A DNA stretch of 56,824 nucleotides from Candidatus Poribacteria bacterium (GTDB lineage: Bacteria > Poribacteria > WGA-4E > PCPOR2b): assembly GCA_022822785.1 (NCBI GenBank), contig JAJEAL010000043.1, forward strand, positions 1 through 56,824. The letters run 5' to 3'. Shown here piece after piece: positions 28,328 through 34,899 of this stretch. The translations under genes were made by a program, and so were the position numbers. The notes below the pieces were generated by a model, which ran no database searches, was not told the origin of the DNA, and was given only the letters and a program-made list of their open reading frames with translations. Every line of letters starts with the position of its first letter. Position 1 is the stretch's first letter.

Positions 28328-28427
28328 TAGTTCCCTCCGTGTTTTGTAACGAAAAATATGCCGCCCTGTTTTTTTATTGTTGAGGCAAACATATTTCTCC
28401 TATATTTTTTATAAGTAACAATTTGGG

Positions 28428-28766
28428 TTGATTAACGTCTTGACAATACTACTCTGGTTTTCAGGTTGGGCTGCCCGTGATTTTGAAGTCCGTCCGTCTG
28501 TTTTTGTCGATGAACAACAGAAAAGTAGTTTTGAGATATATGTCCCAATTCTTCGTCAAGCGAGGGAACGGCTCAAATCTGACGGTGTACTTGTCTTACA
28601 TCTAGGCAAAAGTGTCAAGTGTGATATGGCTGCTCATTTACAGAAACTTGGTAAACGATGGTTCCGTTCGGCGAATCTTTTCGATGAAAGTGTCGCCCAC
28701 TGTGAATCGCACGGTATCCGGGACAAAGGAACAGTTACTTCTCATCAGTATCTTGTGTTGTACTAG
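28428..28766 (+). pseudogene. C-terminal remnant of a SAM-dependent (probably DNA) methyltransferase
   Basis: A 112-codon open stretch whose first ~20 codons look arbitrary. From VRPSVFVDEQQKSSFEIYVPILRQA it reads as the last third of a Rossmann methyltransferase: a strand/turn LKSDGVLVLHLGKS and a conserved-looking tail HGIRDKGTVTSHQYLVLY. No SAM-binding FxGxG or catalytic DPPY-type motif is present, because the N-terminal part is missing. No good start or ribosome site exists. It lies at the downstream edge of the DpdA-type island, facing it. Assignment to DNA methylases is from remembered similarity of the tail. Confidence 0.5.
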
Positions 28767-28831
28767 CACCTACCGCCTGATGGAGCACCCGTTGATATTC
28801 CTGATCGGCTTGACGGATCTAATTTGTATTG

Positions 28832-29866
28832 TTACTTCAGCGTGTCAGACCTTTCTACGATTTGATCGATGAGTGGGCGATAAGTCGAGTTATGCAGATG
28901 TTCTTTGTACCATTCTACATAAGTTTTATTTTTTATGTGCTCTTGAATCATTCTATTTTCTTCCAGCAACGTCCATAAGTTGTGGGTGGCTCGGTTGCAA
29001 GCACCAAAGGTACGGTTCGCTTTAAGACCCTCTAAACCATACTTTTGACAAGCGGGACATTGACACTCTTCCAATTTTTTCAATTCTTGCGAAGTTGGTT
29101 CGCGCACCTTCCAATTACCAAGATCGGCTATGGAACGATCACCAATTCCTGGTAACTGCACAAGCCCGCGCGCTGCGCGAACACGCCAACCAACGGAATC
29201 CACCGAATCCATCTTCAACAACGCAGCGATGTGCAACGTGGCTGTTCCGCCAACTCCAAAGAGGTGTAATTTCTGATTTGCAAATGTCTCACGAACTTTA
29301 TATATACTGTTAAGTATTTTCTTATAAGACATGGATTTAGGGGCACGTAAGAGATTGGGAACAATCCCACCGATGGCAAAAATTGATTTTTCCCGCAGTT
29401 TTTCATCTTCATTAAACAGACGAATGTATTTGTTCAAACGGCGACTTACATGCAGGATCGGCACATAACCATCGTAAGAAAATTCTTGATTAACTGCCAT
29501 TGTCTTTTCTAAACATTTATTTTGTTTATAATCGCTCATGCACGGTGTAGGAATGTAATCTTGAGGGATTACGTACCAGTCAGGCTTTACCTTTTTCACG
29601 AATGCCTTATAATCATCACGCGGCACTTCGCCCCCAGCCCGTGAAAATCTGAATGCTCCATTATCCAAGTAGATTTTTACATGCTTTGGAACACTAAGAC
29701 TGGTGTGCAATCCCTCCTCTATAGCTCGACGATAGCGAGTCCGGTTTTGATGAAATTCTGCGTAGGAAACCATTACAGCATCTAGATCAGACAAGTAATA
29801 AGGTGAGGCGGTATCCCATACTCGTGGCTTGATACTGTTTAGATTCAAACCTGCAACGATTTTCAT
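28832..29866 (-). CDS. DpdA-like tRNA-guanine-transglycosylase-fold enzyme
   Basis: A 344-residue TGT-fold protein. Comparison with bacterial TGT gives YLDNGAF (Asp68) for the DSGGF catalytic Asp, PQDY (Asp103) for the base-binding FDE Asp, IGGIVPN (165-171) for the base-pocket GGL loop, and VDSVGWRVRAARG (Asp223) for the nucleophile Asp. The zinc site is C268-x-C270-x2-C273 with His295. DpdA enzymes insert preQ0 into DNA in place of guanine; canonical TGT acts on tRNA. The diverged DSVGWR segment and the HerA-NurA neighbours favour a DNA substrate (inference). ATG 29866 is chosen because it follows the nurA stop by two bases behind AAAGGAAATTAGGG; an upstream start would overlap nurA. Confidence 0.8.
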   Translation of the reverse strand: MKIVAGLNLNSIKPRVWDTASPYYLSDLDAVMVSYAEFHQNRTRYRRAIEEGLHTSLSVPKHVKIYLDNGAFRFSRAGGEVPRDDYKAFVKKVKPDWYVIPQDYIPTPCMSDYKQNKCLEKTMAVNQEFSYDGYVPILHVSRRLNKYIRLFNEDEKLREKSIFAIGGIVPNLLRAPKSMSYKKILNSIYKVRETFANQKLHLFGVGGTATLHIAALLKMDSVDSVGWRVRAARGLVQLPGIGDRSIADLGNWKVREPTSQELKKLEECQCPACQKYGLEGLKANRTFGACNRATHNLWTLLEENRMIQEHIKNKTYVEWYKEHLHNSTYRPLIDQIVERSDTLK

Positions 29867-29868
29867 CC

Positions 29869-31479
29869 CTAATTTCCTTTGACCATTTTTTGAAAACGCG
29901 ACATGATCCATTGTCCAGTTGCCGAATCAATCGATTTTCCAACATCTTTTGAGAGTGTATGTGCGTGCTGAGTAACGGTTGGAATGAGATAATTTACTGG
30001 TCGATCAGCCATAAATGAGTGGTCTACGTCAACTGTAAAACCACACTTCTGTATACCAGATAGAATCTTTTGGGTTATTTTTTCGGGGTTACCAAGAGAT
30101 TCGGAGTAGAAGAACTCATAACGGGGGAGCTGCTGCTGTGGGCTTTTGGAATGGCCGATAAAGAACATGTAAACGTGAGCAATTTCACACAATCTTTTGT
30201 ATGGATTGATATCTACTTCTGGATGTTGGTCTTGATAGGTTTGAAAGTAGGTATTAAGATCATCGAGATCTGCTCTGAGATTCAAATTCGCCCTTGTAGT
30301 GAATGAGCGGCGAATCAGGCAAGTTGCTACAGCTTGTTCTAAATTATCTCCCACAAATGATGGGGAGGCCAGTAGCACACTCATCATTTGCCCATCGTTG
30401 AACGTGTAATTACCAAATTGCCAATTTGGATCGATATATTTCGCAACGAACCAATCGACGATTGCGCTATAGACTTTTAGTTGTACGTTTTTCGACACGC
30501 CGCAGTAAACCGCACCGATTGCTCTCGCATAACTCAAGCAATCGAGCATCTCACGTATAGCTTCGCGGGTGAAATCACCCCTTCTATTTTCAATTAGGAA
30601 GTTGTCAAGGTAAGCGTCTTGCGGAAATAAACTTCCATCTCTAAAAATAATATCAGGTGGACGCATGTTTGCTTTCAACAAGTATCCAAGATCAAACTTA
30701 TACTGACCAACATCCATCGCCGAATCTAAACACCGCTGATAATCTTCGTTTTCGAGTTCGTCTTGATAGGACGGATCAATTAGCATCCATCTCATTAACT
30801 CCTCATCCGGCTTGGGGTTAAAGATATTGTCAAACTTAGGACTGCCATCCTGCACCGTGTATAATGTGCCTGCTGCATTGTTGAGTACAAATGGAACTTG
30901 GCGCTTAAAAAAAGGTGCGGGAACAGGAACAGCACTACGATGTTGGCTAACGTCGGAAGCTCCAATAACTGGGAGACGACCATTCCAGACAGTTTCGTCA
31001 ATTGTAATCGGGTTGAGGAAGTATTCTCCGAGGATGTGATCATCAAGGTGTTTTTGCACAGCCTCTGCATCAAGATGAACTGTCCGTCGTGTTCCGCCTT
31101 TGGAAGGTTGATTCACACGGATTTGTCGTCTACTCATCCCAAGTCCGCGAATTGCCACTGTTTCTAACAAGTTTGCTAACGCTTCAGACTTGGGAGAGTT
31201 TTGCTCAATCTCGTGTTTCAAATCAATCAGAAAGTCGAAATAGAGTTGCTGTGGTTTTCTCTGCAATAAAGCTTCACGGACTTTTTGAAATGTCGTTTCC
31301 CAAACCTGTTCAATTTCCACTACACGCCGCATATATTCGGCGGTAGTTGCAAGGGGATCATATCCCTGAAAAGTGCCCTCCTGTGGACGATTATGTACTT
31401 CTGCAGAACTGATTACTTCATTAAAATTGATCTCTAGCTGCAAATCAGATTGCTGCTGGGACTTGGATTTACGTGGCAT
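29869..31479 (-). CDS. NurA-domain nuclease
   Basis: A 536-residue NurA-type nuclease. The metal-binding motifs are VIGASDVSQ (Asp176) and FRDGSLF (Asp281), matching the two key acidic motifs of NurA, with a late TQHAHTLSKDV segment (about 503-513) in the place of the conserved C-terminal histidine. An N-terminal extension of about 160 residues precedes the domain. NurA is a 5'-3' exonuclease/endonuclease that works inside a complex with HerA in archaeal end resection and in some bacterial defence loci. ATG 31479 follows GGAGGAG. HerA is directly upstream (15-base gap) and the DpdA-like gene follows two bases after the stop. Confidence 0.8.
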   Translation of the reverse strand: MPRKSKSQQQSDLQLEINFNEVISSAEVHNRPQEGTFQGYDPLATTAEYMRRVVEIEQVWETTFQKVREALLQRKPQQLYFDFLIDLKHEIEQNSPKSEALANLLETVAIRGLGMSRRQIRVNQPSKGGTRRTVHLDAEAVQKHLDDHILGEYFLNPITIDETVWNGRLPVIGASDVSQHRSAVPVPAPFFKRQVPFVLNNAAGTLYTVQDGSPKFDNIFNPKPDEELMRWMLIDPSYQDELENEDYQRCLDSAMDVGQYKFDLGYLLKANMRPPDIIFRDGSLFPQDAYLDNFLIENRRGDFTREAIREMLDCLSYARAIGAVYCGVSKNVQLKVYSAIVDWFVAKYIDPNWQFGNYTFNDGQMMSVLLASPSFVGDNLEQAVATCLIRRSFTTRANLNLRADLDDLNTYFQTYQDQHPEVDINPYKRLCEIAHVYMFFIGHSKSPQQQLPRYEFFYSESLGNPEKITQKILSGIQKCGFTVDVDHSFMADRPVNYLIPTVTQHAHTLSKDVGKSIDSATGQWIMSRFQKMVKGN

Positions 31480-31494
31480 TAACTCCTCCGTATT

Positions 31495-33009
31495 TCAAGT
31501 TGGTCGTCTTACTAATTTTGCCCATTTTTCTTCCATCATTTCCTTAAAAATATTTGGTGTTTCGCCCCCCTCTGATTTTGGAGTTTCTCGTTGTCGAATT
31601 TTAACGGGAATGGTGTGCTTTATACTCTCATAAGTGCCTGAAAGCAAACCCGTTCCTTGTGGCATCTTCGATAGGGCATTTAACATTTCTTCTGAAGCGT
31701 CCGCTTTCACACCGCGAATAGCATCAAGTTGATCCGGCTCTAACGCAAAAACAAGACGTGTGTTACATTGACGAATTGTTCGCTTATCAATGTCAACAGG
31801 GCTTTGTGTCATGAGTACCATCGCAATCCCATGATGCCGGCCCATACGAACTCCTTCTCGAATAATCTGTTTGCAGGGGCTGCCTTCTCCCTCAGGGACA
31901 AATAAATGAGCTTCGTCAATAACGGCAACATAAGGTGGAATGAATCCTCGTAACCGTAAATCTTGTAATTCCCTCAACAGAGCAGTAGCAACAGTTTGTA
32001 ACCTATTTGATGTCAGATGTTTGCAGTTGATAGAAAGACATGGAATCATTAGTTCGGGCCAATTTGCTCGTCCAATTCCTTCACCAAAGATGTTGTGTCT
32101 AGATAAGAACTCGGTTCTCATACTTGCTAGGCTTACGGAACTGGCTGTCTTCGTCAATTTTGGACCAACCTTCTCAACTCTGTCCACCAAATCTGTAATA
32201 GAAAATTTTTTTCTTTTGTCTGCACTAATCTCATCTTCTAACTCCAAAAACGCTGCTGTGATGATGTTTTGTTGCAACTCTGAGTCAGTAGGAACGAGAT
32301 CAATGAGTTCTCGATCGGTCAGTGATGAAATGCGAATGTTGAAGTCTTTGCCCGGAGTACGAACCTGACCTCCTAACCCTTTTACTAGATTTGAATACTC
32401 GTCTTGAGTATCAATAAATATAACGGGTAAATCATGTTTCACTAGCTCTTCAGCAATAACACCCATCGCGTAACTTTTGCCGCTACCGGTTGTTCCGCAA
32501 AGAAAAAAATGTCGTTGAATAGACTCCCGCTTGAGAATAATGTTAGTAGTTGTGCCACTGACCGTCTTACCAATCTTCAGACCAATCGATTTATCTTTAG
32601 TCAGACCAAGTGCTTGCACAATCTCATCGTCATTGGCGATAAATACGTCCGAGCCAGGCTGAGGCAATGTCTGCGGTGATTGCATGGTTTGATCAATAAG
32701 TTCCTCGATTAATTCAGCTTCCGCAAGACGGAAAATTGTTGTGCTATGTTCCTCCCCCGGATAGTTTGCTTCCATTCCCAAGGTATCACGAACATTGATG
32801 CTTTGAGGATTTTCTTGAGGATTTTGCTCGTGAGCACTACGAATTCGACCAATGAGCGTGCTATCCACATTATTCCTTGACACGGGCACTCGAACAAGCG
32901 TACCCGGTTTGACATCTTGCCCAGCCTTTAGTTTAATCCGGATAACTTCAAACGTTGGAGTTTCCTGATCGGAAATAACTGTACCAATGGGATCTGTATT
33001 AGAACTCAT
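31495..33009 (-). CDS. HerA-type hexameric DNA-translocating ATPase
   Basis: A 504-residue HerA/FtsK-superfamily ATPase. An N-terminal HAS-barrel-like region (about 1-115) precedes Walker A GTTGSGKS (172-179), Walker B VAVIDEAH (Asp366-Glu367) and the sensor-like LMTQSP (399-404). HerA forms a ring that drives DNA through an attached nuclease such as NurA. ATG 33009 is selected because AGGAGG precedes it by 7 bases; a start 27 codons upstream would overlap the previous gene. It is the second gene of a four-gene minus-strand operon. Confidence 0.88.
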   Translation of the reverse strand: MSSNTDPIGTVISDQETPTFEVIRIKLKAGQDVKPGTLVRVPVSRNNVDSTLIGRIRSAHEQNPQENPQSINVRDTLGMEANYPGEEHSTTIFRLAEAELIEELIDQTMQSPQTLPQPGSDVFIANDDEIVQALGLTKDKSIGLKIGKTVSGTTTNIILKRESIQRHFFLCGTTGSGKSYAMGVIAEELVKHDLPVIFIDTQDEYSNLVKGLGGQVRTPGKDFNIRISSLTDRELIDLVPTDSELQQNIITAAFLELEDEISADKRKKFSITDLVDRVEKVGPKLTKTASSVSLASMRTEFLSRHNIFGEGIGRANWPELMIPCLSINCKHLTSNRLQTVATALLRELQDLRLRGFIPPYVAVIDEAHLFVPEGEGSPCKQIIREGVRMGRHHGIAMVLMTQSPVDIDKRTIRQCNTRLVFALEPDQLDAIRGVKADASEEMLNALSKMPQGTGLLSGTYESIKHTIPVKIRQRETPKSEGGETPNIFKEMMEEKWAKLVRRPT

Positions 33010-33022
33010 CAATAACCTCCTA

Positions 33023-33778
33023 TTACCTTGAATAAACCTTAATTCCGAGTTGTTGCAGGACTCGCCTTGCTTCGTTTGTGTGAAAAGCATTCACAGGCAG
33101 CCCCGTCAACTGATTTACTAACCACTTGGGAGGTACCTGTTGACCGTCTATCTGCACATACCAAACCTGGTATTTTGGGGTATTTTGTTCCTTTTCGAGT
33201 GCGGAACGTGCTTCATCCATTATCTGTTGAGGTGTGAGTGTGATTTCAATACCACGAAGGTATGCCTTGTCTTGTTGGACAACTTTCGTCTGGCTATCAG
33301 GCGATTCTGATACTCCTTCATGCAACCAGTCGTGAAGTTCTGCCAACTTGCGTCCCATTACTCCCCTAGAAACTATCACCTTGAGATTATTGGGAATTAG
33401 CGATTCATATCCATTCAATACTCGCAAATAATCTTTTCCTAGACTTAAAAATAAATCCTCATATCGTTTACGAATTAAAACCTGCTTGAGTGCACTCAAG
33501 ACCGGTTGTTGCAATTCTTTTGCTCGCTGATGTGTCATTCGGCGATCATAGTTAGGAATTGGTTTGCAGGATGAAATCAACCCAAACTCGGCTGATAAGA
33601 TATACATATCAAGTAACCGCGCTTCAGATGGATGCACTCGCATAAACTTGTTCATTACCCGATATGCCGGTCCATCATAACGTTGCAAGGCGGGCAGTAA
33701 GCCTTGAGTGGAGCGCTTCCTTTGGGAACACGAGAGAATTAGCAACCGTTGGTTTGAAGCAGTTTTTTCTTTATACAT
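33023..33778 (-). CDS. DUF6884/YaaA-like protein with C-terminal PPK domain
   Basis: A 251-residue protein. Residues 10-150 look like a DUF6884/YaaA-type domain: RLLILSCSQRKR, then YILSAEFGLI and IPNYDRRMT. A second small domain (about 200-251) has YVQIDGQQVPPKWLV and NEARRVLQQLGI, loosely like short DNA-recognition heads seen in restriction proteins (recalled pattern, not tested). In dpd DNA-modification clusters a YaaA/DUF328 protein, DpdC, converts inserted preQ0 to its amide, so this could be the counterpart. First gene of the operon; its stop is 13 bases before herA. The ATG lacks a Shine-Dalgarno site. Confidence 0.65.
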   Translation of the reverse strand: MYKEKTASNQRLLILSCSQRKRSTQGLLPALQRYDGPAYRVMNKFMRVHPSEARLLDMYILSAEFGLISSCKPIPNYDRRMTHQRAKELQQPVLSALKQVLIRKRYEDLFLSLGKDYLRVLNGYESLIPNNLKVIVSRGVMGRKLAELHDWLHEGVSESPDSQTKVVQQDKAYLRGIEITLTPQQIMDEARSALEKEQNTPKYQVWYVQIDGQQVPPKWLVNQLTGLPVNAFHTNEARRVLQQLGIKVYSR

Positions 33779-33789
33779 GTTTTTAATAA

Positions 33790-33819
33790 AAGATACCAGA
33801 AGAGCCGGACGTAGTGCAA
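33790..33819 (-). promoter_or_regulatory. Possible promoter of the DpdA/HerA/NurA operon
   Basis: On the minus strand TTGCAC (33814-33819) and TATCTT (33790-33795) are 18 bases apart. The predicted start would be only a few bases before the ATG at 33778, giving a nearly leaderless transcript, in line with the missing ribosome site. Weak match. Confidence 0.3.
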
Positions 33820-33870
33820 ATCTATTTTCTTTAGAGTTAAACTAATAGTTTGACTCTGGTGAAAATAAAT

Positions 33871-33992
33871 TATGGTAGATTTTAGAATTACTTAGACGTG
33901 ATGAGCGAACCAAGTCACGAACCTTGCTCACCGAGTTGCGGCACACGGAGTGTGCCTACTACTTTTACTACTTATTTTTAAAATTCACCATA
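33871..33992. repeat. MITE-like element, copy 5
   Basis: A 122-base element with ends TTATGGTAGATTTTAGAATT and, on the other strand, TTATGGTGAATTTTAAAAAT. The interior differs from the other copies (GGCACACGGAGTGTGCC palindrome). It lies just upstream of the DpdA-type operon and downstream of the oxygenase start region. Confidence 0.65.
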
Positions 33993-34053
33993 ATCGTTCA
34001 ACCCAACCTACACCACTATCGTTGATGCAATGAACTAATGTACCTGTGAACCT

Positions 34054-34899
34054 TCACGCCCAAACGAACACCTCATCATCATCTGGTGAATATCCGATAA
34101 AAATAGCCAGGACAGTGCGCGGGGATTTGCCTTTGATGCCCGGTACTTCGTGGATACAGCGGGTGTTGAAAAAGTAGAGATCCCCCACCTCTAAATCGAC
34201 CTGAACCTTTTCGATGCTGTTTTCTGCTGCGTACTGATGGAAAGTGTTGTCTGTGATGTGATGAGCGATTTCCGGTTGCCAGAGGCACCGATGCAAGATG
34301 GATTGTGCCGTTTCACCCTCAATCTCCGAGTTCTGGAAGCAGAGGATCCCGGCTAACTGATGCTCGAAGCGATAGACCTCATAGTTGACGCGATTCTCAC
34401 GCCACCTGACCGAATCGAAATGTGGACTGTAGGCGATACCGCCGTAGTGGATACGAAAAATCGCGGGCCCGTAACGCCGACCGTCCGGCTCATACGCGGT
34501 CACGACACGCTTGCCGGGCGCTAACCGGGCGAGGTTTTCGTAGAGCGTCGTCACCGGATTATCGAATCCGTCGAACAGGGTCTCAAAAAGGGTGTGGGTT
34601 TCTTCGGCGTGTGAGAAGAAATCCACCGGCGAGTTTCCACGGTTGCCTAGGCTGGTGCCGATGTCGATCCGTTCTCTGGGGACAATCGAGGGGTCGTTGT
34701 AAAGCGCGTCCTGATCATAGATCAGCCCTTTTTCGATAAACCGTTGGGTGAGCCCCTCACAGTGTGCGGGGTTGTAAGCCTGACGGATAATTGGCGCCGG
34801 CGTGTGCATCTCAGCGAGTGCTTGGATTGGGTTGGGGTATCTTTCCAAAATCGTCTCCCAATCCGGTTCGATAGGAGTCCACGGATCTTGTTGCGACAT
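34054..34899 (-). CDS. 2OG-Fe(II) oxygenase-like protein
   Basis: A 281-residue protein with the iron-binding facial triad of 2-oxoglutarate oxygenases: SPHFDSVRW supplies His-x-Asp (about residues 160-162), RCIHEVPG the distal His (about 249), and RTVLAIFIGY the 2-oxoglutarate-binding Arg. The substrate is unknown. ATG 34899 follows AGGGAGC on the minus strand. It is unrelated in closer sequence to the PhyH genes at 14793 and 42936. Confidence 0.72.
   Translation of the reverse strand: MSQQDPWTPIEPDWETILERYPNPIQALAEMHTPAPIIRQAYNPAHCEGLTQRFIEKGLIYDQDALYNDPSIVPRERIDIGTSLGNRGNSPVDFFSHAEETHTLFETLFDGFDNPVTTLYENLARLAPGKRVVTAYEPDGRRYGPAIFRIHYGGIAYSPHFDSVRWRENRVNYEVYRFEHQLAGILCFQNSEIEGETAQSILHRCLWQPEIAHHITDNTFHQYAAENSIEKVQVDLEVGDLYFFNTRCIHEVPGIKGKSPRTVLAIFIGYSPDDDEVFVWA

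Follow-up and report, generated by a model that had tools for sequence, protein, structure and literature searches.

A compact operon that joins a TGT-fold base-exchange enzyme to HerA and NurA in Poribacteria, a candidate 7-deazaguanine restriction system

The window analyzed here, the 56,824-nucleotide contig JAJEAL010000043.1 of a Candidatus Poribacteria bacterium (assembly GCA_022822785.1) and contig 67 of its 5.6-Mb genome, carries an operon of four genes that code for a DUF6884 protein, a HerA-family ATPase, a NurA-like nuclease, and a TGT-fold base-exchange enzyme. The operon is a compact, mobile, and patchily distributed unit. Its low-G+C island, its scattered spread, the exchange of its nuclease cassette, and its plasmid and phage copies all show a candidate modification gene and a nuclease gene brought together in one mobile package. 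DNA marked with 7-deazaguanines has precedents in large Dpd islands and in phages. The four-gene operon is probably a compact antiviral (anti-DNA) system of the restriction-modification kind that uses such a mark.

As we picture it, preQ0 would come from the QueC pathway of the host or, in hosts that lack QueC, would enter through a YhhQ-type transporter, and the TGT would swap guanine in host DNA for preQ0 or a relative of it. Inserted preQ0 is a substrate of both DpdC and ArcS, and DpdC converts it to ADG. The DUF6884 protein might likewise process the inserted base, or it might recognize the target site. HerA would then thread unmarked incoming DNA into NurA, which would shred it, and marked host DNA would be spared. 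Four elements of this scheme are inferred: that the substrate is DNA, what the mark is chemically, what DUF6884 does, and that HerA-NurA serves as the restriction effector.

Recurrence of the operon

Orthologs of the TGT occur in 12 cellular genomes of Poribacteria, Latescibacteria, and Chloroflexota, and the 11 outside the window genome are 52-80% identical to the window protein. Five of 85 Poribacteria genomes carry it at 57% identity or more, the window genome included. One Latescibacteria and two Chloroflexota genomes came from a scan across GTDB, and four more were met among 400 sampled Chloroflexota (5/400 carry the TGT). HerA and NurA are encoded in the same operon as the TGT in every one of the 12. 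A DUF6884 protein is present in 11, as an intact orthologous copy in nine; the copy in genome G037 has a premature stop and is accompanied by other DUF6884-type proteins, and genome G103 has a different DUF6884 protein (2e-19).

An earlier note on this DNA, made from its sequence alone, had proposed recurrence of the four-gene order as a test of its reading. Other genomes do have the set, and one of them repeats the window's order exactly (Latescibacteria locus L025, with gaps of 13, 4, and -4 bases). Because of this identical order, and because HerA, NurA, and TGT stand together in all 12 TGT genomes, the arrangement is not a product of chance. The nuclease of the window type (NurA-A, see below) occurs, among 83 Poribacteria genomes, in exactly the three that have the corresponding type of operon.

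A TGT family of its own on the DpdA side of the tree

In a Pfam scan of the four operon proteins and two flanking genes, the window enzyme matched the TGT family above its cut-off (4.5e-14). The earlier note had described complete catalytic and zinc residues, and these are indeed present: D68, D103, and D223, together with the zinc ligands C268, C270, C273, and H295, are invariant in 14 of 14 family members. A further residue, window H201, aligns with His196 of the phage 9g DpdA, which is conserved in DpdA (PMC6884629), and is replaced by Tyr or Phe in bacterial tRNA Tgts. Another histidine, at window position 139, was rejected as a diagnostic of DpdA as it does not align with His196 of 9g.

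A tree of 35 sequences puts the operon TGTs in one group (90/94), with long branches around it, and a 99/98 split leaves this group on the side of DpdA. The other side holds tRNA Tgt, archaeal TGT, and TGT-DUF5591 proteins, so the clustering with bacterial tRNA TGT that the note had named as a possible refutation was not seen. Profile searches of the PDB matched archaeosine TGT (1iq8, 3e-12) and a DNA-guanine transglycosylase (7ui4, 0.006). Because the enzyme scores below the curated cut-offs of DpdA, bacterial Tgt (TIGR00430, 23.5 bits; cut-off 306.75), and archaeal TgtA, it is, judged from its sequence, a separate family that lies nearest to DpdA by tree and is not a DpdA member. The label “DpdA-type” given to it earlier does not stand as worded, since the enzyme has its own clade and reaches 21 bits against a DpdA cut-off of 200. 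The enzyme is probably a DNA-guanine transglycosylase. A separate housekeeping Tgt is encoded in the window genome on C70.

The window genome also has a fusion of a TGT to an ArcS-like DUF5591 domain near a probable type I restriction subunit (L112:8133-10124, the same locus as L003, contig 97), and the DUF5591 part matches ArcS. Fusions of this kind were seen in genomes G019 and G027 as well.

Exchange of the nuclease cassette between constant bookends

HerA is recognized by both Pfam and PDB searches (Pfam HerA/DUF87, 7e-22, 79 bits against a cut-off of 23.2; PDB HerA structures 4d2i, 6.6e-14, and 9x1l, 8e-15), and its Walker A (GTTGSGKS) and Walker B (VIDEAH) motifs can be read directly. 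The identities originally assigned to the DUF6884 and HerA proteins stand above Pfam cut-offs, and that of the window NurA falls below. NurA is the sole Pfam family matched by all four homologs of the window type (best 0.0034), and the window protein contains NurA-like motifs read from its sequence (ASDVSQH, RDGSLFP, GVSK, PRYE, and PTVTQHAH). In T. kodakarensis, HerA-NurA performs ATP-dependent cleavage of both strands of double-stranded DNA (PMC12977600).

Two versions of the operon can be distinguished. Type A, the version in the window, has the order DUF6884-HerA-NurA-TGT, and type B has the order DUF6884-NurA-HerA-TGT. The HerA proteins of the two types are about 28% alike and the NurA proteins cannot be aligned by simple profiles; the type-B NurA, which occupies the corresponding slot, exceeds the Pfam cut-off (8e-9, 35.7 bits). 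At one locus, L019, a type-B set precedes a full type-A set, with a 26-residue remnant of a TGT in between. A single clade of type-A TGTs is rejected (p-AU 3e-8), and the type-B locus L018 groups with the type-A window in both the DUF6884 and TGT trees. Because of these two results, the outer genes share a history within which the inner pair was exchanged. Together, these observations show that the HerA-NurA pair has been swapped between constant DUF6884 and TGT bookends.

A third cassette is found on plasmid6 of the cyanobacterium Aulosira laxa NIES-50 (L072), where DUF6884 (48%) and TGT (56%) genes bracket a 352-aa protein with NurA-like motifs noted by eye, a weak HerA/DUF87 match, an SbcD/Mre11-type protein, and an SbcC/Rad50-type protein. 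The nucleases of the different cassettes could not be linked to each other. Comparison of NurA-A, NurA-B, and the Aulosira NurA-like protein by hhalign gave probabilities below 1%, hidden Markov model searches joined NurA-A neither to NurA-B nor to a 694-aa protein of locus L109 described below, and the NurA-A profile had no match in the PDB. What identifies the type-A, Aulosira, and L109 proteins as NurA is therefore their motifs and position, with the weak Pfam match in addition for type A. A plasmid search returned no HerA-A or NurA-B matches, and a viral search returned no NurA-B match.

DUF6884 and its partnership with TGT-family enzymes

The window DUF6884 protein exceeds the cut-off of its Pfam family (PF21818, 1.4e-8) and resembles the PADLOC models PDC-M57A (1e-7) and DpdC (1.4e-3). 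For DpdC of dpd islands, DUF6884 is listed as the Pfam domain (PMC11888242). A Foldseek search with the predicted structure (pLDDT 85) returned AF0587 (6.6e-4), E. coli YaaA (1.9e-3), and then SMUG1, with TM-scores of 0.3-0.4 for YaaA and AF0587; the sequence had no match in the PDB. These results place the protein in the YaaA/DpdC/ArcS-DUF5591 superfamily, with an additional conserved C-terminal region at approximately residues 170-250. A further idea, that this region resembles the DNA-reading heads of HNH restriction enzymes, found no support.

Several loci outside the operon join DUF6884 to a TGT-family enzyme. In the Latescibacteria genome G085, which also has a type-A operon, one open reading frame (ORF) fuses DUF6884 to a true DpdA (7ui4, 7e-65) at a locus with another HerA; the fusion is followed by the 694-aa protein with NurA-like motifs and by HerA (L109:1804-7168). 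In the Poribacteria genome G056, a row consisting of DUF6884, a UvrD-like helicase, a PD-(D/E)XK-looking protein, and a DUF6884-DpdA fusion (L110:5246-10946) is possibly another cassette type. Because of the DUF6884-DpdA fusions in these two genomes, DUF6884 is seen to be coupled to TGT-family enzymes beyond the operon itself.

Elsewhere, three genes and one for a BrxD-like ATPase lie between DUF6884 and a TGT (L090:6323-11587 and L091:6346-11655); these TGTs keep the catalytic Asp residues, and the aligned zinc cysteines are absent. A locus of Poribacteria genome G001 (L022:735-9065) combines a divergent TGT and DUF6884 with an N6/N4 DNA methylase, a 385-aa gene, and a 1356-aa DEAD helicase. 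On contig 88 of the window genome, a second DUF6884 protein (45% identical) lies beside DNA methyltransferase-like and restriction-enzyme-like genes (L111:7116-9906).

In our estimate the chances are even that the operon is one member of a general, so far undescribed class, in which DUF6884 and TGT/DpdA marking bookends, sometimes fused, enclose interchangeable DNA-destroying cassettes. With the same evenly balanced expectation, these cassettes would comprise HerA-NurA of types A and B, the HerA-like/Mre11/Rad50 set of Aulosira, the sets with a BrxD-like ATPase, and UvrD with a predicted PD-(D/E)XK nuclease.

Substrate and direction of the mark

Full QueC, the preQ0 synthase, is encoded in seven of the operon genomes (G000, G019, G027, G037, G057, G085, and G103), and none of these has a Vut_1/YhhQ gene at the operon. 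Five operon genomes lack full QueC (G086, G087, G285, G317, and G181), and in four of them a Vut_1 gene lies immediately or a few genes upstream of DUF6884, at L026 by only 13 bases. Vut_1/YhhQ is a preQ0-transporter family (PMC5372724). In G285 and G317 the operon copy is the only Vut_1 gene in the genome; G086 and G087 have a second Vut_1/YhhQ gene elsewhere, which in G087 lies about 2 kb from the housekeeping tgt. A one-sided Fisher calculation by hand gives 5/495 = 0.010 for this association, and the evidence is weaker than that value because G285, G317, and G181 are related. Such a placement of transporter genes is what one would predict for an operon that uses up preQ0 or a close relative of it. 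The pattern therefore backs a 7-deazaguanine substrate, with DNA as its presumed acceptor.

Two further cases bear on what the mark may do. A phage contig from IMG/VR (L029; major head protein 4e-57, terminase 3e-27) carries a relative of the operon TGT (56%), and HerA, NurA, and DUF6884 of the operon type were not found in the 17 kb of this contig that the analysis covered. Directly ahead of the TGT, and in frame with it, lies an 18-aa stretch of type-B HerA, a scrap that points to a probable origin of the phage gene in such an operon; the nearest TGT in the tree is that of Aulosira (97/92). Many phages are known to carry a lone DpdA, and phage DNA gains protection from deazaguanines (PMC6884629). 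In the second case, Poribacteria genome G056 (L088) keeps NurA-B and HerA-B at a secF/sigma54-regulator site shared with G057; it has no TGT, and a deletion through residues 79-215 breaks its DUF6884, so both bookends were lost together. The solitary phage TGT and this joint loss both fit a mark of self.

The same contig, from a tailed phage, also has type IV CRISPR genes, in which Csf1 and Csf2 are joined by at least two copies of Csf3 (PADLOC, 1e-26 to 1e-45), along with two PAPS-reductase-like genes (L029:778-7323). Between secF and the type-B operon, loci L018 (6825-8454) and L088 (6619-7362) have extra small conserved proteins (DUFb) without a Pfam match, whose sequences are related to one another and, more weakly, to proteins of the DUF6884 type.

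Weighing the explanations

Several results weigh against a restriction system based on a DNA mark. The top-scoring curated model for the window TGT is archaeal TgtA (TIGR00432, 59.3 bits; cut-off 350), the DpdA model of NCBIfam (NF041059) gives 21.1 bits (E 1.2e-4), and the histidine at the H201 position is also found in archaeal TGT (arcTGT). The window NurA-like protein reaches only 15.5 bits in Pfam (E = 0.012; cut-off 21), and the AF2 model of NurA-A, built from an alignment of four rows, has a pLDDT of 39. No DUF6884 was found beside the operon in G027, and G181 has neither full QueC nor a detected transporter. The phage and G056 cases are single examples, and HerA-NurA persists in G056 without TGT, though DUF6884 is broken there, so that the nuclease may be harmless by itself. 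Many of the genomes are fragmented metagenome assemblies. The modification and restriction island that the earlier note had proposed is favored by transporter genes where QueC is missing and by the TGT-only phage, and it lacks DpdB, for which Pfam and PADLOC gave no match among the four operon proteins.

A different division of labor, which we consider unlikely, would make HerA-NurA an access machine that opens host DNA for the TGT, with NurA as a structural or nicking partner. The system would then mark DNA for protection from other restriction systems, or for regulation, and would not attack invaders. Insertion by Dpd enzymes needs the ATPase DpdB, there is no other candidate for such a role here, substitution by another ATPase has been discussed (PMC12839542), and in cells the TGT is always accompanied by HerA-NurA. 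However, the phage keeps its TGT without them, which suggests that insertion is independent of HerA-NurA, and G056 retains NurA-HerA without the TGT. The wholesale swapping of the nuclease cassette, including the Mre11-Rad50 version, is also what would be expected of effectors. If the TGT were instead a weapon, HerA would capture foreign DNA, the TGT would load it with deazaguanine, and NurA would cut what is marked. The parts list is identical and sequence does not fix the direction of the mark, but there would be no reason for a phage to carry such a TGT, and known DpdA marks protect phage DNA (PMC6884629); we regard this as the least probable of the explanations considered.

Two more explanations dispense with a defense function. 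That the TGT is a divergent enzyme of tRNA modification or salvage, with bystander neighbors in a gene-rich island, seems improbable to us. Membership in the TGT family, the best curated score to the archaeal tRNA enzyme, and the use of YhhQ genes in queuosine salvage would favor it, but the genomes checked already have a housekeeping tRNA Tgt, and G086 and G087 hold their second YhhQ away from the operon, in G087 near tgt. The split from tRNA TGTs in the tree, the linkage to HerA-NurA in 12 of 12 genomes, and the patchy spread (5/85 Poribacteria and 5/400 Chloroflexota) also speak against it. We find it very improbable that the operon serves repair or base excision, with DUF6884 (UDG-like fold) and TGT exchanging damaged purines while HerA-NurA, in Aulosira together with Mre11-Rad50, resects ends. 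HerA-NurA and Mre11-Rad50 are archaeal repair machines (PMC2288612), and the fold search with DUF6884 returned SMUG1 as one of its weaker matches. Against this stand the patchy distribution on islands, a plasmid, and a phage, the association of transporter genes with loss of QueC, and the fact that the phage took the TGT only.

Relation to known systems

Restriction guided by 7-deazaguanine marks is already known, and on the basis of gene content the DUF6884/HerA/NurA/TGT operon appears to be a new variant of that logic. Like the Dpd islands (DpdA-DpdB-DpdC with DpdD-K), it pairs a TGT that has the DpdA signature histidine and a complete active site with a partner of the DpdC/YaaA superfamily, has genes for preQ0 supply or transport nearby, and combines modification with a nuclease. 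It differs from those islands in that its TGT scores under the DpdA cut-off and forms a clade apart, DpdB and DpdD-K are missing, and a single HerA-NurA pair takes the place of the large restriction operon. Orphan phage DpdA offers a parallel for the phage contig, which carries its TGT alone as many phages carry a lone DpdA (PMC6884629), but that copy comes from the operon family and not from the known phage DpdA/DpdA2.

The earlier note knew of no characterized system that unites a TGT with just HerA and NurA, and no description of the gene set was found in the searchable literature, a search that did not extend to paywalled papers and preprints. The statement needs one qualification, in that some loci of BREX-related capture (BRC) systems pair a TGT with a HerA/FtsK translocase, with a 7-deazaguanine self-mark proposed for them (PMC12839542). 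BRC is defined by PglZ, DUF6079 (BrxC), STAND, and DUF4007, with no DpdC or DpdB homolog reported (PMC12839542). The Pfam scan found no PglZ, DUF6079/BrxC, STAND NTPase, or DUF4007 in the operon proteins or the two flanking genes; the operon thus differs from BRC in lacking BREX parts and in using NurA.

HerA-NurA end resection, with or without Mre11-Rad50, likewise places the HerA ATPase in tandem with a NurA-family nuclease. Its setting is repair and it has no link to base exchange, whereas the present copies are sporadic and, among the genomes found, TGT-linked save in G056/G055. DndFGH, an example of HerA anti-invader capture, also couples a DNA mark to a HerA-family motor (DndH) on the restriction side. 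Its mark, however, is backbone sulfur (phosphorothioate) and involves no base exchange, and it has no NurA, TGT, or DUF6884.

Operon layout and genomic island

The four genes are as compact as had been described, with all ORFs intact and intergenic gaps of 13, 15, and 2 bases. The HerA start given in Table 1 has GGAGG just upstream; an alternative longer ORF from 33090 overlaps DUF6884. The operon has a G+C content of 42.9%, and its flanks have 51.6% and 52.7%, with sharp changes near 28 and 34 kb. A tRNA, an Rfam match, and a flanking direct repeat were sought at the island ends, and none accounts for them.

Table 1. Features of the operon and its surroundings in the window
Feature	Coordinates	Strand	Remarks
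DUF6884 protein	33023..33778	-	251 aa; intact ORF
HerA-family ATPase, type A	31495..33009	-	504 aa from ATG at 33009; intact ORF
NurA-like nuclease, type A	29869..31479	-	536 aa; intact ORF
TGT-fold base-exchange enzyme	28832..29866	-	344 aa from ATG at 29866; intact ORF
Approximate low-G+C island around the operon	28330..34050	.	G+C step relative to flanks
DNA methyltransferase C-terminal remnant at island edge	28428..28766	+	similarity to L113 ORF

Over 104 aa, the methyltransferase remnant shares 81% identity with the C-terminal end of an 898-aa ORF in L113, which has methyltransferase-like motifs and adjoins an HNH-like ORF. By this similarity, the remnant is debris of another restriction-modification system and not a working part, and the site has therefore housed other such genes. 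Defense-like neighbors occur at other copies of the operon: HepT-MNT in L020, and in Latescibacteria a complete EcoRV-type restriction enzyme with a D12 methylase directly downstream of the type-A operon (L025:12144-14017). Upstream of the operon, window positions 34054-34899 match the WelO5 carrier-independent halogenase family (Pfam, 1.3e-16).

Implications

If the modular class exists, archaeal-style end-resection machines have been recruited as restriction effectors under the guidance of a 7-deazaguanine self-mark. The four-gene system itself would give HerA-NurA, known until now as a repair machine, a defense role coupled to a chemical mark of self. The swapped cassettes indicate which parts mark and which cut, and the QueC/transporter pattern and the lone phage TGT lead to direct predictions on the precursor and on anti-restriction. 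Because the culture-collection strain Aulosira laxa NIES-50 carries a relative of the operon, nucleoside analysis should be feasible at once. With only four genes, the system would offer a tractable route to learning how a base-exchange mark steers a nuclease.

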